9,890 nucleotides of DNA from Lachnospiraceae bacterium (lineage in GTDB: Bacteria > Bacillota_A > Clostridia > Lachnospirales > Lachnospiraceae). The position numbers were made by a program, and so were the translations under genes. The notes beneath the pieces are model-generated. The model did not search any database and was not told the origin of the DNA. It saw only the letters and a list, made by a program, of their open reading frames with translations. This document shows, piece by piece, positions 1,106-9,628 of the stretch. How positions within the stretch are numbered: the stretch's first letter is position 1; each line of letters begins with the position of its first letter. The DNA lies in assembly GCA_017958245.1 (NCBI GenBank), contig JAGDDC010000368.1, positions 1 through 9,890 of the forward strand, written 5' to 3'.

Positions 1106-1225
1106 GCAATTTTTGCACAATGTTAGACAATTCTTTTTGCAAGTCCTTTCTCAAAATTCAACATTTTTATCATTTCATACAGAACATATTTTCATGCTTG
1201 ACAAGTTTTGACCTCTGACTACAAA

Positions 1226-1308
1226 AGTGGTTAAAAACTGTGGATAATGTTGATAACTTCGTGTATAACTTTCCGATGCCATAAAATCGGTCTTCCAAAT
1301 GTGGATAA
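1226..1308 (+). other. Cluster of DnaA boxes in the hpf-kamA spacer
   Basis: Two perfect DnaA boxes (TGTGGATAA, the complement of TTATCCACA) lie at 1239-1247 and 1300-1308. A one-mismatch box (TGTTGATAA) abuts the first at 1248-1256. Two-mismatch copies are at 1226-1234 (AGTGGTTAA) and 1260-1268 (CGTGTATAA). All five have the same orientation. The surrounding sequence is AT-rich, with a GC-rich patch to the right (1351-1374). In bacteria such clusters mark oriC or DnaA-titrating or regulatory loci. No dnaA or dnaN gene is in view, so which of these applies is open. Confidence 0.65.
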
Positions 1309-1479
1309 CTATTTATGTAGACGACGCCCCAAAAATTAACTTTCGTTTTACCGGGGGCCACCCCTTGAGACCCCTTTGTACAAAGTTTACAAACAGACCC
1401 CATGTCAAGACCGAATCCAAATTTTAAAATTTAAAAAACTCATTTCCGACTCAGTCTGTTTTTTTACAATTTAAAATAT
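1309..1479. other. Non-coding spacer between the DnaA boxes and the aminomutase gene
   Basis: No convincing gene is seen here. It contains a perfect 12-bp palindrome CTTTGTACAAAG (1374-1385), two AGACCCC copies (1368-1374 and 1395-1401), and a 14-bp AT palindrome (1419-1432). It then becomes A/T-tract rich up to the kamA stop. No strong terminator for the aminomutase gene is visible on the minus strand. The palindromes could be operators or AT-rich unwinding sequence; neither can be assigned. Confidence 0.4.
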
Positions 1480-2691
1480 TTAGACCGACCTGCTGCCGAG
1501 CGGAGCAAGGGTTCGGTTTAAGATCCCGGCCTCGTGTCTTTCGCGGTGCCGCACGCCCGTGCTCTCCAAATGACGGCTTCCCATGTGCACTGTCTCGAAG
1601 TCATCGTCAAGCCAGGTCTGGTCCTCACCGAGCTTCACCGCGACGATCCTTCCGAGGTTGCTGCGGTCCTTCGCCTGCTTGTACTGGAAGAGCATCCTGC
1701 CGTCTCCCGTCTCACCCAGTATCCTCATCTTCCCGGTCACATGCGACATGGCGTAATCGGCGGATTTGCCGAGCCCGTTCTGACACGCGAGAGCTTCACT
1801 CACGAGCCTGCTCCCCCTCGCTATGGGAACCTGGAACCTCGACCTCACTCCCTGCACCGGTCTGCACTGGAATATATAGTGCTGGACGATGCCAAGAGAG
1901 GAAACCTTCTTTAAAAGTGTCGTGAGGACGTCTTTGTCGTCGTTTATCCCCTTCATGAGCACGGTCTGGTTCTTGATCACCACACCTGCCCCCTGAAGCG
2001 CCTTCACGGCAGCCATCGATTCGGGCGTGATCTCCTTCGGATGATTAAAATGAGTCACGACATAGATCTGCTTCTTTTTGCTGTACTCCCCAAGCACCTT
2101 CACAAGCTCCGGATCCATGGTTATCCTCTGCGGGAAGGTCACGATCGTCCTCGTGCCGAACCTGATGAAGTCGAGCTGGTCGAGACCGGACAGTCTGTCA
2201 AGCCATCCTGCGATCGCCTCGGTAGAGAGCATAAAAGAGTCCCCGCCGCTCAAAAGAACGTTGGTCACCTCGGGGTGATCCTTTATATAACCGATGATGG
2301 CATCCTTGTCTACAGCCGTCTCGCCCGTCTCTTTCCCAACCAGCCTTCTTCTGAAGCAATGCCTGCAAAACATGGCGCATACAGGTGTAGTAAGGACCAT
2401 GACGGTCTCTCTGTACTTGTGCTGCATGCCCTGTAGCTTCGTGTTGCTGTGCTCTCCGCTGGTGTCGAGCACACCGTCCGTGAGTACGGTCCGCCCCGCG
2501 GGGATCGCCATCTTCCTGATGGGATCTTCGGGGTCGTCCGGGTCTATAAGCGACAGATAGTACCTCGTGACCGACATGGGAAACTGCTCTGTCTCGTCCC
2601 TGATCTCTTCGTACTCCTCATTTGTGAGCTTGAGAGGCTCTATGAGCTCCTCAGCAGTCGTTACGTTTTCCCTCAAAAGTTCTCTCCACAT
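1480..2691 (-). CDS. KamA-family radical SAM aminomutase, probably acting on an acidic amino acid
   Basis: This family moves an alpha-amino group to the beta carbon using a 4Fe-4S cluster, S-adenosylmethionine and PLP. Numbered from a GTG at 2730, the cluster motif CxxxCxxC is C118, C122 and C125, the SAM segment is SGGDSF (161-166), HFNHPKEIT starts at 227, and the probable PLP lysine is K334 in VTGK. Lysine 2,3-aminomutase anchors lysine with Asp in QCD and Asp in VVDAPGGGGK. Here these are R290 (QCRP) and a non-acidic residue (A327, in the stretch AMSHVTGK). Glutamate 2,3-aminomutase also replaces them, with Lys and Asn, so an acidic substrate such as glutamate is inferred. I prefer the ATG at 2691 (403 residues) because AAGGAGG lies five bases upstream; the GTG at 2730 has no such site. 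The gene sits directly behind a c-di-AMP riboswitch and terminator. Confidence 0.85.
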   Translation of the reverse strand: MWRELLRENVTTAEELIEPLKLTNEEYEEIRDETEQFPMSVTRYYLSLIDPDDPEDPIRKMAIPAGRTVLTDGVLDTSGEHSNTKLQGMQHKYRETVMVLTTPVCAMFCRHCFRRRLVGKETGETAVDKDAIIGYIKDHPEVTNVLLSGGDSFMLSTEAIAGWLDRLSGLDQLDFIRFGTRTIVTFPQRITMDPELVKVLGEYSKKKQIYVVTHFNHPKEITPESMAAVKALQGAGVVIKNQTVLMKGINDDKDVLTTLLKKVSSLGIVQHYIFQCRPVQGVRSRFQVPIARGSRLVSEALACQNGLGKSADYAMSHVTGKMRILGETGDGRMLFQYKQAKDRSNLGRIVAVKLGEDQTWLDDDFETVHMGSRHLESTGVRHRERHEAGILNRTLAPLGSRSV

Positions 2692-2704
2692 ACCTTCCTC
2701 CTTG

Positions 2705-2737
2705 TCATGATGAGCCTTGCCCTGCGCCACCGGTCAT
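2705..2737 (-). other. Possible 10-codon leader ORF ahead of the aminomutase gene
   Basis: On the minus strand an ATG at 2737, nine bases after AGGGG, opens a reading frame MTGGAGQGSS that stops at 2705, 13 bases before the preferred aminomutase ATG. A GC hairpin with GGAG in its loop (2754-2769, GCCGCC/GGCGGC) stands just upstream. It could couple translation to the main gene, but so short a frame can arise by chance. Confidence 0.2.
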
Positions 2738-2790
2738 CCGCGATATCCCCTCTGCCGCCCTCCGGCGGCGTGACGGCTGTTTTGATCGCA

Positions 2791-2821
2791 TAAAAAAACC
2801 TTCCTTAGTAAAAGGAAGGTT
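2791..2821 (-). terminator. Leader terminator (riboswitch expression platform)
   Basis: On the minus strand AACCTTCCTT (2821-2812) and AAGGAAGGTT (2806-2797) form a perfect 10-bp stem with a 5-nt loop. The stem runs into a tract of seven T. It lies about 80 nt after the riboswitch aptamer and about 100 nt before the aminomutase ATG, the position of an intrinsic terminator governed by the aptamer. The 5' arm can alternatively pair with GGGAAGGT just after the aptamer (2900-2893). Confidence 0.93.
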
Positions 2822-2900
2822 AAAGCAAACATCGCAAAAAACGAGAACAAAAACACACGGGAGCCAAAAAGCTTCCATGATGTCTCAAGATGACCTTCCC

Positions 2901-3005
2901 AACGCCTACGAGATTAGCTGACGGGTTCGGAGAGGGAAGTCTCCTATCGCTTTTGCGAATTCACCCCAAATGTGGTTCTCCCGCTGTCAAACGGCACTCG
3001 GCGTA
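2901..3005 (-). promoter_or_regulatory. c-di-AMP riboswitch (ydaO/yuaA leader)
   Basis: The minus-strand leader carries the conserved core of the ydaO-yuaA class. P1 is ACGCC (3004-3000) with GGCGT (2906-2902). Next come GGGAGAACC and GGGGTGAA (2967-2960), then a TCGC-AAAA-GCGA hairpin, then GATAGGAGA, whose GGAGA (2944-2940) pairs with TCTCC (2933-2929). The hallmark CCGAACCCGTCAGCTAA (2930-2914) and TCGTAGGCGT complete it. Aptamers of this class bind cyclic di-AMP and usually switch the downstream gene off when ligand is high, consistent with the terminator that follows. Known targets include cell-wall hydrolases and potassium and osmolyte transport or synthesis. The lysine riboswitch was considered because of the downstream KamA homologue, but the core sequence does not fit it. 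Confidence 0.93.
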
Positions 3006-3021
3006 TTTATACTGCCCTTAC

Positions 3022-3050
3022 ATCTTAACTTAAAAAGGGCTTTCTGTCAA
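3022..3050 (-). promoter_or_regulatory. Sigma-A promoter driving the riboswitch and aminomutase gene
   Basis: The minus strand shows a consensus -35 TTGACA (3050-3045), a 17-nt spacer, and -10 TAAGAT (3027-3022). Transcription would start near 3015, about ten bases before the riboswitch P1 stem. This is a strong basal promoter, as expected where control is exerted later by a riboswitch. Confidence 0.88.
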
Positions 3051-3052
3051 TA

Positions 3053-3069
3053 TTGTTAATAATTAACAA
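3053..3069. promoter_or_regulatory. 17-bp perfect palindrome, candidate operator (Rex-like half-sites)
   Basis: TTGTTAAT-A-ATTAACAA is a perfect inverted repeat three bases upstream of the aminomutase -35, in the divergent spacer with the small plus-strand gene. The half-sites TTGTTAA/TTAACAA match those of clostridial Rex, the NADH/NAD redox repressor, but they are separated by three bases instead of the usual four. A further TTAACAA half-site lies at 3105-3111, within an 8-4-8 AT-rich inverted repeat (3098-3117). The regulator is not identified. Confidence 0.45.
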
Positions 3070-3125
3070 ATGAGCGTCGGGATTTTACTGATTTTTAAAA
3101 ATATTTAACAATATTTTAAAAATAG

Positions 3126-3154
3126 TTGCAAAACAATAAGAATTATGCAATACT
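3126..3154 (+). promoter_or_regulatory. Candidate promoter of the small plus-strand gene
   Basis: TTGCAA (3126-3131), a 17-nt spacer and AATACT (3149-3154) give a 4/6 plus 4/6 match to sigma-A elements, about 55 nt before the ribosome binding site. It is the best candidate in an AT-rich region where chance matches are common. Confidence 0.35.
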
Positions 3155-3210
3155 GTAAGAGAGCTCGGTAAATCAAGTGCTCTTTATCTGCCATCCATAA
3201 GACAAAGGAG

Positions 3211-3255
3211 CCCGCATTTGCGGGAGTACAAAGTCCTTGCCTCACATGGCAAGGA
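3211..3255 (+). promoter_or_regulatory. Two hairpins over the start codon of the small gene
   Basis: CCCGCA (3211-3216) and TGCGGG (3219-3224) form a perfect inverted repeat whose centre holds the TTG start codon. Ten bases later TCCTTGCC (3234-3241) and GGCAAGGA (3248-3255) form an 8-bp stem with a 6-nt loop inside codons 6-13. The first stem would directly follow the AAAGGAG ribosome binding site. Control of initiation by RNA structure is an inference. Confidence 0.5.
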
Positions 3256-3577
3256 ACACTGTACTGTTTTATCAATGGGAAACCAGGTATACTCGCACGC
3301 CGGTTACTTGATCATCAAAGTGAGCAACAACGGCTTCGTCGTCCTCAACAAGAGGAAGGATTTCAAGAACGGGCACACACACATCAGAAGCTTTAAGACA
3401 GCGAAGTATCTCATCGATCTTGCAAGCAGAAAAACGCTGCCCCACCATCTCTCGCCCTATCTCCTCGTTTCGCTGATGCGCATCACCGAGGATGATATGT
3501 TCAAGAGGAAGGTGGAGCAGCTTTTGTTTGCCAAAAATGATCGCAAGCAGAAACCTGTACGCAGACAGACTGCTTGA
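3218..3577 (+). CDS. Small basic protein of unknown function
   Basis: I do not recognise a named family. The 119-residue product is basic, with a Lys/Arg-rich tail (NDRKQKPVRRQTA), and has no signal peptide or transmembrane segment. Residues 20-45 look like alternating beta-strand sequence (GYLIIKVSNNGFVVLNKRKDF). They are followed by GHTHIRSFKTAKYLIDLA and a helix-rich C-terminal half (LSPYLLVSLMRITEDDMFKRKVEQLLF). It is the only plus-strand gene in the window. TTG at 3218 is the likely start because AAAGGAG lies seven bases upstream; the first in-frame ATG (residue 20) lacks a comparable site. It diverges from the aminomutase gene across a shared regulatory spacer and converges on arcC with 19 bases between stops. 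A weak TTGAG/CTCAA hairpin (3574-3588) overlaps its stop. It is probably a real lineage-specific protein. Confidence 0.75.
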   Translation: MREYKVLASHGKEHCTVLSMGNQVYSHAGYLIIKVSNNGFVVLNKRKDFKNGHTHIRSFKTAKYLIDLASRKTLPHHLSPYLLVSLMRITEDDMFKRKVEQLLFAKNDRKQKPVRRQTA

Positions 3578-3596
3578 GGTTCGCTCAATAGACGGA

Positions 3597-4523
3597 CTAG
3601 CTGATAGTCGTACCCGTCTTTCCGTTTATTCCGTCCTTAGCCTTCTCAAGGAGCGTGATAAGGGCCTTCCTGCCCTTCTTTGAGGAAGCGAAATCGACAG
3701 CGGCAGTCACCTTGGGAAGCATCGATCCGGGTGCGAAATGCCCCTCACCCATATACTTCTTGGCCTCGTCAACTCTTATGTTGTCGAGGTCTTTTTGATC
3801 GGGCTTGCCAAAGTTTATGGCCACCTTCTCGACTGCGGTCAGGATGATGAGGTAATCTGCGTCAAGATCCTTTGCCATGACTGCGCTCGCGAAATCCTTG
3901 TCTATCACGGCTCCAACACCCTTCAAGTGGTTGCCCTCCCTGATGACGGGTATTCCGCCGCCTCCGCAGGCTATGACGATCTCGCCGTTCTCGACGAGCT
4001 TCCTTATAGCGCTGATCTCAACGATCTCAACAGGCTTGGGCGAAGCGACTACTCGCCTGAATCCGCGGCCTGCATCCTCCTTCACTATATAGCCGTTCTC
4101 CGCTGCGAACTTCTTTGCGGTCTCCTCGTCCATAAACTTTCCTATGGGCTTAGTGGGATTTAAGAAAGCGGGGTCCTCGGGGTCTACACGCACCTGAGTC
4201 ACCATAGACACAACGGGCTTCTCGATGTTTCTGTTCAACATCTCCTCGCGTATCGCGTTCTGAAGATCGTAACCTATGTACGCCTGGCTCATGGCAACGC
4301 ACACAGACAGGGGCGTCTCGGGAGTCTTCTCGTCGATCCTGCTGTACTCGTGCATCGCCTGGTTGATCATGCCGACCTGCGGTCCGTTTCCGTGGGAGAC
4401 AACGACCTCGTGTCCCTCCTCGATCAGGTCGACTATGGCCTTTGCAGTTGTCTTTACGGCAGCCATCTGCTCCTTCAAGTTGTTACCGAGGGCATTGCCG
4501 CCTAAAGCTATAACTATTCTCAT
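3597..4523 (-). CDS. arcC: Carbamate kinase
   Basis: This cytoplasmic enzyme transfers the phosphate of carbamoyl phosphate to ADP, giving ATP, CO2 and ammonia: the substrate-level phosphorylation step of arginine, agmatine, purine and other ureido-compound fermentations. The amino acid kinase fold is evident: ALGGNALG (6-13), VSHGNGPQVG (42-51), ACGGGGIPV (185-193), AVIDKDFASAVMA (205-217) and GHFAPGSMLPKV (261-272). The 308-residue length is normal. I chose the ATG at 4523 because GGAG lies six bases upstream; the ATG at 4535 has no ribosome binding site. It is the last gene of the operon, directly after the carbamoyltransferase, which fits use of the carbamoyl phosphate that enzyme would release. 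No arcA (arginine deiminase) is present, so this is not a standard arginine deiminase operon. Confidence 0.95.
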   Translation of the reverse strand: MRIVIALGGNALGNNLKEQMAAVKTTAKAIVDLIEEGHEVVVSHGNGPQVGMINQAMHEYSRIDEKTPETPLSVCVAMSQAYIGYDLQNAIREEMLNRNIEKPVVSMVTQVRVDPEDPAFLNPTKPIGKFMDEETAKKFAAENGYIVKEDAGRGFRRVVASPKPVEIVEISAIRKLVENGEIVIACGGGGIPVIREGNHLKGVGAVIDKDFASAVMAKDLDADYLIILTAVEKVAINFGKPDQKDLDNIRVDEAKKYMGEGHFAPGSMLPKVTAAVDFASSKKGRKALITLLEKAKDGINGKTGTTIS

Positions 4524-4546
4524 ATCCTTCTCCATTTCAGTTTAAC

Positions 4547-4580
4547 AGGGCTTAAGCCCGGTATCCCGTGCTTAAGCCCT
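4547..4580 (-). repeat. Intercistronic stem-loop between ygeW and arcC
   Basis: AGGGCTTAAGC (4547-4557) and GCTTAAGCCCT (4570-4580) form a perfect 11-bp stem. The 12-nt loop can add an inner CGG/CCG stem. On the minus strand no T-tract follows (GTTAAAC), so it is not a classical terminator. A role in mRNA processing, 3' protection of the upstream message, or partial attenuation before arcC is possible. Confidence 0.7.
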
Positions 4581-4601
4581 CATTTTTACAGTTTCATACG
4601 A

Positions 4602-5810
4602 TCACAGAAGCTTTCTCTGCGTTCCTCTCTTCTCAAGATCTGCAAGTGTCTTTGCGGGATCCTTGATCTTCTGAAGGAAGATCATAGCAGCTATAACATA
4701 AGGCTTGAAGCTTGCCTGCTTGTAGAGCGGTGTGCGGTAACGGTCGAATACGGATCCGTCAACCTCGCCCTCCGTGCAGCTCACACCCGAGATATCTGCG
4801 GGCAGGCAGTGCAGGTAGAGTGCCTTGCCGTCCTTTGTGAGCTTCATCATTTCCTCTGTGCAAGCCCAATCCTTGTGCTCTGCGTTCTGAGCGAGGAGTC
4901 TCTTCTCGAGCTCGTCGATGCCCGCTCTGTCGCCCTTTGCGTAGAGGTCTGTTCTCTCCTCCATAGCCTTGAAAGGAGCCCAGCTCTTGGGATATACGAT
5001 GTCGGCATCCTTGAAAGCGTCTGCCATATCGTTGGTCTTCCTGAAGGAACCGCCCGATGCTGCAGCGTTCTTCTTTGCGATCTCCTCGATCTCGGGCATG
5101 ATCTCATAGCCTTCCGGATGAGCGAGAATGATCTCGCAGCCCAGACGTGAGAACAGGCCGATAACACCCTGAGGTACCGAGAGCGGCTTGCCGTATGAAG
5201 GCGAGTAAGCCCATGTCATGGCGATCTTCTTGCCCTTGAGCTTGTCAGCGCCGCCGAACTCATGTATACAATGCAGGAGATCTGCCAGACACTGTGTGGG
5301 GTGGTCTATATCGCACTGGAGGTTCACGAGTGTAGGCCTCTGCTCGAGTATGCCGTCCTCGTTGCCCATGCGAACCGCCTCCGAAACAGCCTGCTGGTAG
5401 GTGTGGCCCTTGCCGATGTACATATCGTCGCGGATACCGATGACGTCAGCCATAAAGCTGATCATGTTCGCCGTCTCACGCACGGTCTCGCCGTGAGCGA
5501 TCTGGCTCTTGCCCTCGTCGAGATCCTGAACCTCGAGTCCGAGCAGGTTGCATGCAGATGCAAATGAGAACCTTGTACGGGTCGAGTTGTCGCGGAAGAG
5601 CGAGATCCCGAGGCCCGACTCAAAGATCTTGGTGGAGATGTTGTTCTCCCTGAGGTAACGGAGAGCGTCAGCCACCGTAAAGAGCGCCTCGATCTCGTCA
5701 TCCGTCTTGTCCCAGGTGAGGAAGAAATCGTTGTTGTACATCTCCTTGAAGTTGAGCTTGTTCAGCTTGTCGATGTACGCCTTGAGGTTCTTGTCCATAC
5801 AAACATCCAT
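4602..5810 (-). CDS. ygeW: Knotted carbamoyltransferase, YgeW family
   Basis: This is a transcarbamylase of the aspartate/ornithine carbamoyltransferase superfamily, in the YgeW branch. Its physiological substrate is not firmly settled; ureido derivatives of 2,3-diaminopropionate are favoured from gene context. The carbamoyl-phosphate loop FRDNSTRTR is at 72-80, DIDHPTQCLADLLH at 167-180, and HCLPADI at 334-340. An YPKSWAPF segment (273-280) and the 402-residue length, longer than ornithine carbamoyltransferase, fit YgeW; E. coli YgeW is about 396 residues. The ATG at 5810 has AAAGGA ten bases upstream. The gene follows ygeY by 79 bases and precedes arcC by 78. With carbamate kinase the pair probably runs in the phosphorolytic direction, cleaving a ureido compound to an amine and carbamoyl phosphate for ATP. 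No separate promoter is evident. Confidence 0.94.
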   Translation of the reverse strand: MDVCMDKNLKAYIDKLNKLNFKEMYNNDFFLTWDKTDDEIEALFTVADALRYLRENNISTKIFESGLGISLFRDNSTRTRFSFASACNLLGLEVQDLDEGKSQIAHGETVRETANMISFMADVIGIRDDMYIGKGHTYQQAVSEAVRMGNEDGILEQRPTLVNLQCDIDHPTQCLADLLHCIHEFGGADKLKGKKIAMTWAYSPSYGKPLSVPQGVIGLFSRLGCEIILAHPEGYEIMPEIEEIAKKNAAASGGSFRKTNDMADAFKDADIVYPKSWAPFKAMEERTDLYAKGDRAGIDELEKRLLAQNAEHKDWACTEEMMKLTKDGKALYLHCLPADISGVSCTEGEVDGSVFDRYRTPLYKQASFKPYVIAAMIFLQKIKDPAKTLADLEKRGTQRKLL

Positions 5811-5889
5811 ACTTTTGAAATCCTTTCTGTGTTAAATCATATCAGGGCGCTCAAAAAAGCAGCCTGTATCTTCAGTTCCAATCCCGTCT

Positions 5890-7215
5890 TCAGCCTTCCT
5901 GAACGTAGAGTGTGGGAAGTCCCGCATAAACTGCCGCACAGGTAACAAGATCCTGCTTCCATGTGTGCTCGTTCGGGAAATGAGCCTGCGACTCTGCGCC
6001 GGGTCCGAAACCGATACAAGGTATCCCGTTTCTTCCCATGATCGTAACGCCGTTGGTCGAGAAGGTCCATTTGTCGGTGAGCGGTCTGCTTCCGCGGATC
6101 TTCATGCACTCCTCGTTTCCGATCCTCTTGTCGCCGTAGCATCCCTTGTAGGAAGCCTCGAGAGCCTTCGTGATCTTGTGGTCCTTCGGGATGACCCATG
6201 TGGGGAAGTAGCACTCGATCTCATATACGAGACCTGTGTATGAAGGACGGTCGTAGTTGTACATCGAAACCTTCACTGAGTCGCCGTACTTCTTGACAGC
6301 GGGAAGCTGACGGATCTCTTCGAGGCAGCTCTCCCACGTCTCGACTGCGGTCATTCTTCTGTCGAGCGATACCGCACAGGAGTCTGCAACCGCGCAACGG
6401 CTGGGCGATGTAAAGAAGATCTGCGATACCGTAACGGTACCTCTTCCGAGGAAGTTTGCCTCCTCCCACTGCTCGGGGTTGTACTTCTTGTCGAGCATCT
6501 TGACAAGTCCCTTGATCTCCGTCGAGTCAGCAGCGTCGTTCTCGTTGAGTGCGCGAACGTCCTGAAGTATGTCAGCCATCTTGTAGATAGCGTTGTCACC
6601 GCGCTCGGGAGCCGAACCGTGGCAGGAAACGCCCGTCACGTCGATACGGATCTCCATACGTCCTCTGTGTCCTCTGTAGATGCCGCCGTCCGTAGGCTCT
6701 GTCGAAACCACGAACTCGGGGCGGATCTTGTCCTCACGGATGATGTACTGCCAGCAAAGTCCGTCGCAGTCCTCCTCCTGAACGGAGCCGACTACCATGA
6801 TCTTCACGTCATCGGGTATGAGGTTCATGTCCTTCATGATCTTTGCGCCATATACGGATGAAACTATACCGCCGAGCTGGTCGGAAGTTCCGCGTCCGCC
6901 GATCTCCTCCTCGGTCTCGTACCCCTCGTACGGATCGAAGTTCCAAAGATCGCGATATCCTATGCCTACCGTGTCGATGTGAGCGTCGAAAGCTATGATG
7001 CGGCTTCCCTTGCCCATATATCCGATCACGTTGCCCTGAGGGTCGACCGTCACTTCATCGAAGCCGACAGCCTCCATCTCCTTCTTGATCCTCTCAACAT
7101 GTCCCTTCTCATCAGAGCTCTCGCCCGGGATCTTTACAAGCTCGCGGAGGAATTTCGTCATTTCCTTCTCGTAACCCTTTGCCGCAGCCTTAATCTTCTC
7201 AAAATCCAGTGCCAT
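5890..7215 (-). CDS. ygeY: YgeY-type M20 family metallohydrolase
   Basis: This is a putative metal-dependent amidohydrolase of the M20/ArgE/DapE family, cytoplasmic, thought to hydrolyse an acyl- or carbamoyl-amine intermediate in the YgeX-YgeY-YgeW pathway. Likely metal ligands are H79 (DAHID), D112 (GGRGTSDQ), E148 (QEEDCDG), E173 (STEPTD) and H412 (AHFPNE); E147 is the probable general base. The stretches [28 protein letters not shown] and [17 protein letters not shown] closely match E. coli YgeY as I remember it. At 441 residues it is longer than the roughly 400 usual, with two apparent insertions, near 224-255 in the lid/dimerisation domain and near 358-380. AAGGAGG lies seven bases before the ATG at 7215. 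It is 54 bases after serA. The family is secure; the substrate is unproven. Confidence 0.93.
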
Positions 7216-7269
7216 AAATCATCCTCCTTTTGTTGTTTTGCCCATATCGCAAATGACCCGTGTGCGCCT

Positions 7270-8427
7270 TTACTTTATGACTCTCACGACTCCGCCTGCC
7301 GCCTCGAGCTTTGCTACCGCATCGTCCGTGCACTCGCGAACGTCAGCGAGCAGATAGCCCACCTTGCCGCGCTTGCCGTCGCAGATCGCGTTGATCACAA
7401 GTCCGAGTCCGTTGGCAACAGCCAGCATGTCGTTTGCCGCGTCGTATCTCACGCAGAGCCTTACGCCCTGCTTCTCGCCGAGTGTGACTCTCGGGTAGTT
7501 TACGGAGTTGACTATGTTTCCGTTCTCAATATAATCTCTTGCCTGCTTTACGGCCATGACAGCACAGTTGTCCTCAGCCTCCTCGGTCGAAGCGCCGAGG
7601 TGAGGTATAGCTATGACGCCTGCCATGCCCGCTGTCCTTGCGTTCGGGAAGTCGGTGATGTACTTTCTCACCTTGCCGTCCGCAAGAGCCTTCTCTATGT
7701 CGTCATCATTTACAAGGGCATCCCTTGCGAAGTTCATGATCACGACTCCGTCCTTCATGAGGGCGATCTTCTCTTTGTTGATCATGCCCTTGGTGTTCTT
7801 CTCGGGATCGGGATCGTCTATCAGGGGAGTGTGAACAGTAATGAAATCACTCACCTTGTAGACCTCATCCCTCGTCGCAAAGATCTCGATCGAAGGATCG
7901 AGAGCAGCCTTCGCTGCGTCCGAGAGGAAGGGATCGCATCCGCACACCGTCATGCCAAGCGACACAGCTGCGTTGGCGAGCGGTCCGCCGATAGCTCCGA
8001 GACCTATGACGCCGAGCTTCTTGCCCTTGATCTCGGTGCCTGCGAATTTGCTCTTGCCTTTCTCGACAAGCTTCGCGACCGTCTCGTCATCCTTGATCGT
8101 CTGTACCCAGCCTATGCCTCCCACGATATCGCGGCAGCACAGGAGCATGCCTGCTATGGCGAGCTCCTTCACGGCGTTTGCGTTGGCGCCGGGTGTGTTG
8201 AAGACTACGATGTTCTCGTCAGCGCATCTGTCGAGCGGTATGTTGTTGACACCCGCGCCTGCCCTGGCGATACATTTCAGGTTCTTTGAAAATGTGAGCT
8301 CATGCATCGCAGCGCTGCGCACAAGGGCGATATCCGCGCTGTCGAGGTCGTCGACTATCTCATAGCCTGCGCCGAGCTGTGCAAGACCAACCTTTGATAT
8401 GTTGTTTAAGCAATTGACTTTTGCCAT
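7270..8427 (-). CDS. serA: D-3-phosphoglycerate dehydrogenase
   Basis: Catalyses NAD-dependent oxidation of 3-phosphoglycerate to 3-phosphohydroxypyruvate, the first step of serine synthesis. The 2-hydroxyacid dehydrogenase fold shows RAGAGVNNI (55-63), NTPGANANAVKELA (77-90), the NAD loop GLGAIG (142-147), catalytic Arg in NFARDALVND (R235) and catalytic His in PHLGAST (H276). The region from about 320 to 385 resembles a C-terminal ACT domain, the usual serine-sensing element. The Glu normally found before the His (DVFxxEP) is not visible; the segment reads TDFPNARTAG, which I believe is typical of a clostridial clade. The ATG at 8427 has GGAGG five bases upstream; longer in-frame TTG starts are not supported. 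It follows serC, with which it makes phosphoserine. Confidence 0.93.
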   Translation of the reverse strand: MAKVNCLNNISKVGLAQLGAGYEIVDDLDSADIALVRSAAMHELTFSKNLKCIARAGAGVNNIPLDRCADENIVVFNTPGANANAVKELAIAGMLLCCRDIVGGIGWVQTIKDDETVAKLVEKGKSKFAGTEIKGKKLGVIGLGAIGGPLANAAVSLGMTVCGCDPFLSDAAKAALDPSIEIFATRDEVYKVSDFITVHTPLIDDPDPEKNTKGMINKEKIALMKDGVVIMNFARDALVNDDDIEKALADGKVRKYITDFPNARTAGMAGVIAIPHLGASTEEAEDNCAVMAVKQARDYIENGNIVNSVNYPRVTLGEKQGVRLCVRYDAANDMLAVANGLGLVINAICDGKRGKVGYLLADVRECTDDAVAKLEAAGGVVRVIK

Positions 8428-8457
8428 TTCAGCCTCCGAATCAAACTGTATGCTGTC

Positions 8458-8485
8458 CCCGCGGGGAAGCAAACTCCCCCGCGGG
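8458..8485 (-). repeat. Intercistronic GC-rich stem-loop between serC and serA
   Basis: CCCGCGGGG (8458-8466) and CCCCGCGGG (8477-8485) form a perfect 9-bp, all-GC stem with a 10-nt loop, beginning nine bases after the serC stop. No T-tract follows on the minus strand (ACAGCAT), so full termination is unlikely. It may stabilise the serC message or set the serC:serA ratio. Confidence 0.7.
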
Positions 8486-8493
8486 ATCAGGGA

Positions 8494-9582
8494 TCATCTT
8501 AAGTGTTCTGCCTCGTACTTCTTCAGGAAATCAACAAGCGCCTGTGCGCCCTCGATCGGCATAGCGTTGTATACCGAAGCGCGGAGACCGCCGACACTCT
8601 TGTGGCCCTTTAAGTTGTCGAAGCCCGCTTCCTTTGTGGCCGCAACGACTTCCGCATCGAGCTCCTTGCTCTCGGTCACGAAGGGTATGTTCATGAGCGA
8701 CCTGCAGCCCTTCTCGACAGTTCCGTTGAACATCTTGCTGCTGTCGAGGAAATCGGAGATGATGGCTGCCTTCTTCTTGTTGATCTCGTTCATCTTGTCG
8801 AGACCGCCGATGGTGTTTAAGAGATATTTGAACACCTTGCCGCACACGTAGATCGCCCAGCAGTTGGGTGTGTTGTACATGGATCCGTTGTTTGCGTGAG
8901 TGTCGTATCTCATGTATACAGGAGTCTTGGGATCGAGATCCTCGCGGATCAGATCCTCTCTGATAATGACGATGGCGAGGCCTGCGGGTCCGATGTTCTT
9001 CTGAACTCCGCCGTAGATCAGGCCGTAATCACTTACGTTGCAAGGCTTCGACAGGAACATGGACGACTGATCGGATACCAGGATCTTGCCCTTTGTGTTG
9101 GGAAGCTTCGGATAAGTCGTTCCGTGGATCGTCTCGTTCTCGCAGATATATACGTAGTCAGCGTCGTCGTCTATCGGAAGATCCGAGCAGTCCGGTATGT
9201 AACTGTAGTTCTTGTCCTCGCTGGTCGCGATGACGTTCACCTTGCCATACTTCTTTGCTTCCGCAGCAGCCTTCTTCGACCACGCGCCCGTCACGATGTA
9301 ATCGGCTACGCCGTTCTTCATGAGGTTCATCGGGATCATGGCAAACTGAAGCGTTGCGCCGCCCTGTATGAACAGGACCTTGTAGTTGTCGGGGATCCCC
9401 ATGAGCTTGCGGATGTCTGCCTCAGCCTCATCCACGATGGTCTGGAATACCTTCGAGCGGTGTGACATCTCCATGACGCTCATGCCGCTCCCCTTGTAGT
9501 CCAAGAGTTCTGCCTGGATCTCCTCAAGCACGGGCAAAGGCATTGTTGCCGGGCCTGCCGAAAAGTTAAATACTCTCGCCAT
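8494..9582 (-). CDS. serC: Phosphoserine aminotransferase
   Basis: This PLP enzyme converts 3-phosphohydroxypyruvate and glutamate to O-phosphoserine and 2-oxoglutarate, the second step of serine synthesis. The class V aminotransferase fold is clear: NFSAGPATMP at the N-terminus, GSGMSVMEMSHRS (31-43), IQGGATLQFAMIP (72-84), SDQSSMFLSKP (170-180), the PLP lysine K195 in GGVQKNIGPAG, and KGHKSVGGLRASVYNAMP near the C-terminus. The 362-residue length is standard. The ATG at 9582 has AGGAGG eight bases upstream; a TTG six bases earlier is too close to that site. It lies 46 bases after the threonine synthase-like gene. No phosphoserine phosphatase (serB) is in the window, so the last step to serine must be encoded elsewhere. 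Confidence 0.97.
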   Translation of the reverse strand: MARVFNFSAGPATMPLPVLEEIQAELLDYKGSGMSVMEMSHRSKVFQTIVDEAEADIRKLMGIPDNYKVLFIQGGATLQFAMIPMNLMKNGVADYIVTGAWSKKAAAEAKKYGKVNVIATSEDKNYSYIPDCSDLPIDDDADYVYICENETIHGTTYPKLPNTKGKILVSDQSSMFLSKPCNVSDYGLIYGGVQKNIGPAGLAIVIIREDLIREDLDPKTPVYMRYDTHANNGSMYNTPNCWAIYVCGKVFKYLLNTIGGLDKMNEINKKKAAIISDFLDSSKMFNGTVEKGCRSLMNIPFVTESKELDAEVVAATKEAGFDNLKGHKSVGGLRASVYNAMPIEGAQALVDFLKKYEAEHLR

Positions 9583-9628
9583 CTTCAAATCCTCCTATTA
9601 TGTGGTTTATGTTGATACTAAAAGAGCC

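Follow-up and report, generated by a model that had tools for sequence, protein, structure and literature searches.

The question raised by this locus is whether cyclic di-adenosine monophosphate (c-di-AMP), known mainly for its control of potassium and solute import, may also act on the production of solutes. The locus lies on contig JAGDDC010000368.1 (assembly GCA_017958245.1) of a Lachnospiraceae bacterium, of which the whole stretch of 9,890 nucleotides was analyzed and is called the window here. On its minus strand, a c-di-AMP (ydaO/yuaA-class) riboswitch stands directly ahead of a gene for a radical S-adenosylmethionine (SAM) enzyme of the KamA family, which also includes lysine 2,3-aminomutase (LAM) and glutamate 2,3-aminomutase (EAM). 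The reading that we prefer, and in which we place about even confidence, is an OFF switch relieved by low c-di-AMP and controlling an acidic-amino-acid aminomutase, most likely one converting glutamate to beta-glutamate; this suggests a cell that makes a protective solute when c-di-AMP falls.

An earlier note, made from the sequence alone, had recognized an aptamer of the ydaO class, and this was confirmed with the Rfam covariance models: the aptamer scored 94.3 bits with RF00379 (E 9.1e-22; gathering score 38 bits) over the full length of the model (1-134 of 134). RF00379 was the sole Rfam family to come up to gathering score in the window, the presence of the Na+ class in that library being unconfirmed. 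The aptamer was alignable with 20 other RF00379 matches, and 36 invariant columns are common to all 21. A promoter-like site with 10 of 12 consensus matches (by consensus match only) precedes it, and a terminator-like hairpin with a 10-pair stem, then the T tract TTTTTATGCG, follows. The promoter and terminator described in the same note thus hold up in their order, and each is weak when taken alone, since scans yield about twice the shuffle numbers (promoter-like sites within 1200-3700, 5 observed vs 2.2 expected; terminator-like sites, 6 vs 2.5); the weight is carried by the order of the sites around the aptamer, which is the one that a transcriptional riboswitch requires. The 5' arm of the terminator, ACCTTCC, could pair with GGGAAGGT at the aptamer's 3' end, as is usual for an antiterminator. 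Of 19 leaders put through a simple scan, 6 yielded no terminator.

The next gene on the riboswitch strand was predicted mechanically as an open reading frame (ORF) from a GTG at 2730 (1480-2730, minus strand). The protein is taken as 403 aa, because the database copy (P0001, 403 aa) and the relatives have their start codon within this ORF, at the ATG at 2691, with AAGGAGG five bases upstream. It scored 237 bits with the KamA family model TIGR00238 (cut-off 199.2; relatives L001, 233.3, and L005, 234.5), so that the KamA-type gene claimed directly behind the riboswitch is indeed there; the name 'aminomutase', also given in the earlier note, would follow from this family membership, and none of the specific 2,3-aminomutase models supplied it. 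Scores were below cut-off for lysine 2,3-aminomutase (TIGR03820, AblA; 231.1 bits vs the equivalog cut-off of 525.4), glutamate 2,3-aminomutase (TIGR04368; 240 vs 650, with the first 55 positions of the model unmatched), EpmB (197.7 vs 369.3), arginine 2,3-aminomutase (217.3 vs 600) and AblA_like_2 (197.8 vs 396.25). The enzyme subfamily lies outside all specific NCBIfam models and is named there at the subfamily level alone. The CxxxCxxC cluster motif is kept (C105, C109 and C112 in the 403-aa numbering), as is K321, at the position that we take to be the lysine binding pyridoxal phosphate (PLP) in LAM. LAM (PDB 2A5H) is the sole solved relative by sequence and the best fold match of the predicted structure, a comparison of one model without ligand that speaks to fold and not to substrate. 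Similarity to the family models stops at residues 311-338 of the 416-aa ORF; a C-terminal extension of about 35 residues (1480-1590, minus strand) is absent from most of 12 aligned relatives and has low values in the predicted local distance difference test (pLDDT).

In a tree made without repeat entries for the same gene, without L016-L018 and without any row shorter than 300 aa, the window enzyme falls into a separate KamA clade of 47 rows, here called the Arg-type subfamily, with a support of 100 in the Shimodaira-Hasegawa-like approximate likelihood-ratio test (SH-aLRT). Its Arg277 is invariant where LAM has Asp293 and EAM-type enzymes have Lys. Throughout the subfamily, Arg and Ser occupy the positions aligned to LAM Asp293 and Asp330, which presumably contact the lysine side chain; in place of the Lys/Asn pair that we take to form the side-chain site of EAM, the window enzyme has Arg/Ser, and EAM membership was ruled out by score and by this residue pair. 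(The EAM class was first defined as H-P-K; its definition as H-[P/A]-K with Asn is broader and was adopted in view of the first sort.) An acidic substrate is probable, because the invariant Arg277 stands at the position of LAM Asp293 and the EAM Lys. A second KamA gene was found in 10 of 25 subfamily genomes screened, a count that leaves out genomes searched at E 1e-100 only, and is LAM-type in all 10; mutual exclusion of the subfamily and EAM was considered and dropped, as little overlap with EAM would be expected in any case.

The pairing of riboswitch and KamA gene recurs beyond the window. Among 13 draft genomes with close relatives of the gene, two contain RF00379, each as a single copy that lies immediately upstream of the gene. 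Across two orders (246 and 248 genomes), RF00379 exceeds the cut-off in seven genomes and one genome, respectively, once each, and three of these eight riboswitches precede a KamA-family gene, in G001 and G005 (Arg-type) and in G063 (EAM-type); the searches of the orders, of the class and genus of G001 and of the family of G005 used stricter filters, by which weak matches may be lost. In the class of G001, 83 of 291 sampled genomes have the riboswitch above cut-off. The suggestion in the earlier note to survey ydaO elements beside KamA homologues proved fruitful at this level: among the matches listed, 16 of 150 riboswitches lie at most 800 bp upstream of a same-strand KamA gene (distances being measured to where the profile match begins and not to the start codon), vs 0.017 expected by position, and these comprise 14 EAM-type genes (beta-glutamate), one LAM gene and one Arg-type gene. 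Counted by gene, again among the matches listed, the riboswitch is present at 14 of 33 EAM-type, 1 of 56 LAM and 1 of 5 Arg-type genes (94 of 97 KamA matches classified; two fragments and the too-short L221 left out). The association differs between EAM-type and LAM genes with p 1.2e-6, a value that overstates the independent evidence, because all 15 EAM-type carriers (the 14 and G063) lie within one 19-row clade and thus approximate one origin. With the EAM model TIGR04368, two riboswitch-bearing EAM-type genes scored 624 and 631, slightly short of the cut-off of 650, and two EAM-type genes that lack the switch scored 659 and 702. The riboswitch of G955 precedes ablA, which is followed by ablB, and that of G929 lies about 2 kb upstream of ablA in a dapB-ablA-ablB run; a run of this kind stands behind a c-di-AMP riboswitch at L174 (2311-6464, minus strand), in a class-level genome. 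Other c-di-AMP riboswitches adjoin ORFs judged DapB-like by eye (L235, L238 and L241, family of G005) or precede ORFs judged by eye to be SPFH-like, transporter or sensor kinase genes (L081-L085, order of G001). Two subfamily genes without riboswitch (L010 and L013) have a tRNA gene just upstream.

In the proposed mechanism, the element would be a transcriptional OFF riboswitch ahead of the KamA-family gene. At high c-di-AMP, with no osmotic distress, the aptamer would be stabilized, the terminator at 2821-2797 would stop transcription and no enzyme would be made; with falling c-di-AMP, RNA polymerase would read through and the enzyme would be produced. This enzyme would be a PLP-dependent radical SAM 2,3-aminomutase, in which Arg277 probably holds an acidic amino acid by the carboxylate on its side chain, and the likeliest reaction would form the compatible solute beta-glutamate from glutamate in one step; a lone gene would be expected for a one-step product. 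The OFF direction finds support in the leader of the lysine aminomutase gene of Dehalobacter sp. CF, for which PMC9337991 reports that c-di-AMP lowers read-through to below 5% during in vitro transcription. A solute role is suggested because the same riboswitch class is found on three KamA families, the side-chain site has a basic residue, and neither in the window nor in L001 does the gene have a same-strand neighbor of known family close by. The reading of the earlier note, in which beta-amino acid synthesis is turned on when c-di-AMP falls, as under osmotic upshift, is supported in part, the beta-amino acid product and the osmotic response being predictions. The aptamer, the family, the residue pattern and the association statistics are computed results; ligand binding, the direction of control, the substrate and the osmolyte role of the window unit are inferred from them and from related systems.

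Among the alternatives, a lysine 2,3-aminomutase whose product is acetylated to N-acetyl-beta-lysine, as in Dehalobacter, is improbable. LAM 2A5H is the only solved relative and the best fold match, and a c-di-AMP riboswitch ahead of ablA is both published (PMC9337991) and seen in G955 and, at about 2 kb, in G929; set against this are the 231 bits on the AblA model vs a cut-off of 525, the replacement of both LAM aspartates by Arg and Ser through the subfamily, the LAM-type second KamA genes (10 of 10), by which a lysine aminomutase would already be there, and the lack of an ablB among the ORFs and family-model matches of the window. N-acetyl-beta-lysine, one of the products considered in the earlier note, is therefore unlikely here, and a lysine aminomutase in an ablAB-type operon of the window was ruled out on score, residues and the missing ablB. 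Even less probable is an accidental or decayed adjacency, with the switch moved in by rearrangement and no functional unit formed, to which the patchy presence of the switch (3 of 47) would correspond. Against it, the window has a promoter-like site, a complete aptamer, a terminator-like hairpin and a probable ribosome binding site following one another in order, and the aptamer-gene order is repeated in two other genomes at 63-68% protein identity, each without another RF00379 match. A sizeable minority of our confidence goes to a real riboswitch ahead of an enzyme with a different substrate, be it a further acidic amino acid, a modified one or a building block of wall or peptide, with c-di-AMP control serving wall or metabolic homeostasis and not a compatible solute. 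The transporter, SPFH-like and sensor kinase ORFs behind other riboswitches in the order of G001 fit such a role, as do the several conserved sites that differ from LAM and EAM-type enzymes and the majority of subfamily members that lack the switch, whereas the same riboswitch class also precedes genes of the EAM type and of LAM, which yield known solutes or precursors, and the Arg of the side-chain site is the counterpart of the Lys in EAM.

Several observations weigh against the glutamate aminomutase under an OFF switch that we favor. The subfamily differs at other sites conserved in LAM and EAM-type enzymes (Lys and Thr at LAM R112 and R116), and its reaction may, judging by these changes, differ from theirs. 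The L005 gene has an amidohydrolase gene behind it, 94 nt away and on its own strand, and in the window a putative 77-aa ORF without Pfam match lies at 1170-1403 on the strand of the gene. The complementarity of aptamer and terminator in the window is no better than that of shuffled arms (p 0.33; the same test gave p 0.01 for L001 and p 0.13 for L005). The riboswitch is present in only 3 of 47 subfamily rows (L009 having just 83 nt upstream), which rules out c-di-AMP control of the subfamily as a whole, and the three carriers share one 6-row tree group with three non-carriers and thus approximate one origin; carriage does not differ significantly from that of LAM (3 of 47 vs 1 of 98, p 0.10; class level, p 0.16). 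The sequences used to build the leader model R1 include those of the window, of L001 and L005 and of several leaders of EAM genes, which therefore match by construction; its structure is that of RNAalifold, not of Rfam, and L001-L018 were additionally scanned with Rfam. No further pair was found in the family of G005 (103 genomes, 8 matches) or the genus of G001 (64 genomes, 2 matches), and none of the 8 new loci from these scans is beside a KamA gene.

Features of the riboswitch-KamA unit in the window
Feature	Position	Strand	Basis
Promoter, sigma-70-like, TTGACA-17-TAAGAT	3022..3050	-	consensus match
c-di-AMP riboswitch aptamer, RF00379	2888..3013	-	94.3 bits, full length, plus alignment
Terminator-like hairpin (expression platform), 10-pair stem and T tract	2797..2821	-	scan
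Probable ribosome binding site AAGGAGG, 5 nt ahead of ATG 2691	2697..2703	-	read from sequence
Radical SAM protein of the KamA family (Arg-type), 403 aa	1480..2691	-	ORF, family models, relatives, tree, residues, fold

Elsewhere in the window, a 119-aa ORF without Pfam or NCBIfam match (3218-3577, plus strand) is divergent from the riboswitch promoter, and the region 3597-9588 encodes, all on the minus strand, SerC, a phosphoglycerate dehydrogenase-like protein (below curated cut-offs), a YgeY-family selenium-linked hydrolase, the knotted carbamoyltransferase YgeW and carbamate kinase.

In a wider reading, for which we would give a little less than even chances, the Arg-type enzymes are a further, separately evolved acidic-amino-acid 2,3-aminomutase (glutamate to beta-glutamate), and c-di-AMP riboswitches were joined at least three times to different KamA families (LAM, EAM-type and Arg-type), so that in Clostridia c-di-AMP would act directly and repeatedly on beta-amino acid solutes. 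If true, this recurrent link to beta-amino acid synthesis would mean that c-di-AMP also governs the production of solutes, and it would point to a function for a KamA subfamily whose only name in NCBIfam is at the subfamily level, along with an enzyme assignment that is simple and can be tested.

The earlier note had left it undecided whether a c-di-AMP riboswitch paired with a KamA-type gene had been described; it has, for a LAM, in PMC9337991, which places a tandem Na+/c-di-AMP riboswitch ahead of the lysine 2,3-aminomutase gene of Dehalobacter sp. CF and names eam among the targets of Na+ riboswitches. Literature searches that combined c-di-AMP or ydaO with aminomutases or beta-glutamate brought up this source alone and no report of a c-di-AMP riboswitch on the Arg-type subfamily, the gene lists of older riboswitch surveys being outside the search; within that scope, two links are new, one to EAM-type genes on the scale of a survey and one to the Arg-type subfamily. 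The window resembles the Dehalobacter system in having a c-di-AMP aptamer and terminator before a KamA-family gene and in the proposed osmolyte logic; it differs in that no second RNA family reached gathering score (with the reservation on the Na+ class made above) and in its enzyme, which by score and residues belongs to another KamA family. Compared with the ydaO/yuaA class (RF00379) itself, the window element is full-length, keeps the conserved core, has a terminator-like hairpin behind it and shows no structural difference. From LAM/AblA (2A5H) the window enzyme differs in that Asp293 and Asp330 are not kept. From EAM (TIGR04368) it is set apart by its score (240 vs 650 bits), by its separate clade and by Ser for Asn at the second position, but it shares with EAM the KamA family, the cofactor motifs, a basic residue at the side-chain site (Arg in the window, Lys in EAM) and the riboswitch class, which EAM-type genes often carry.
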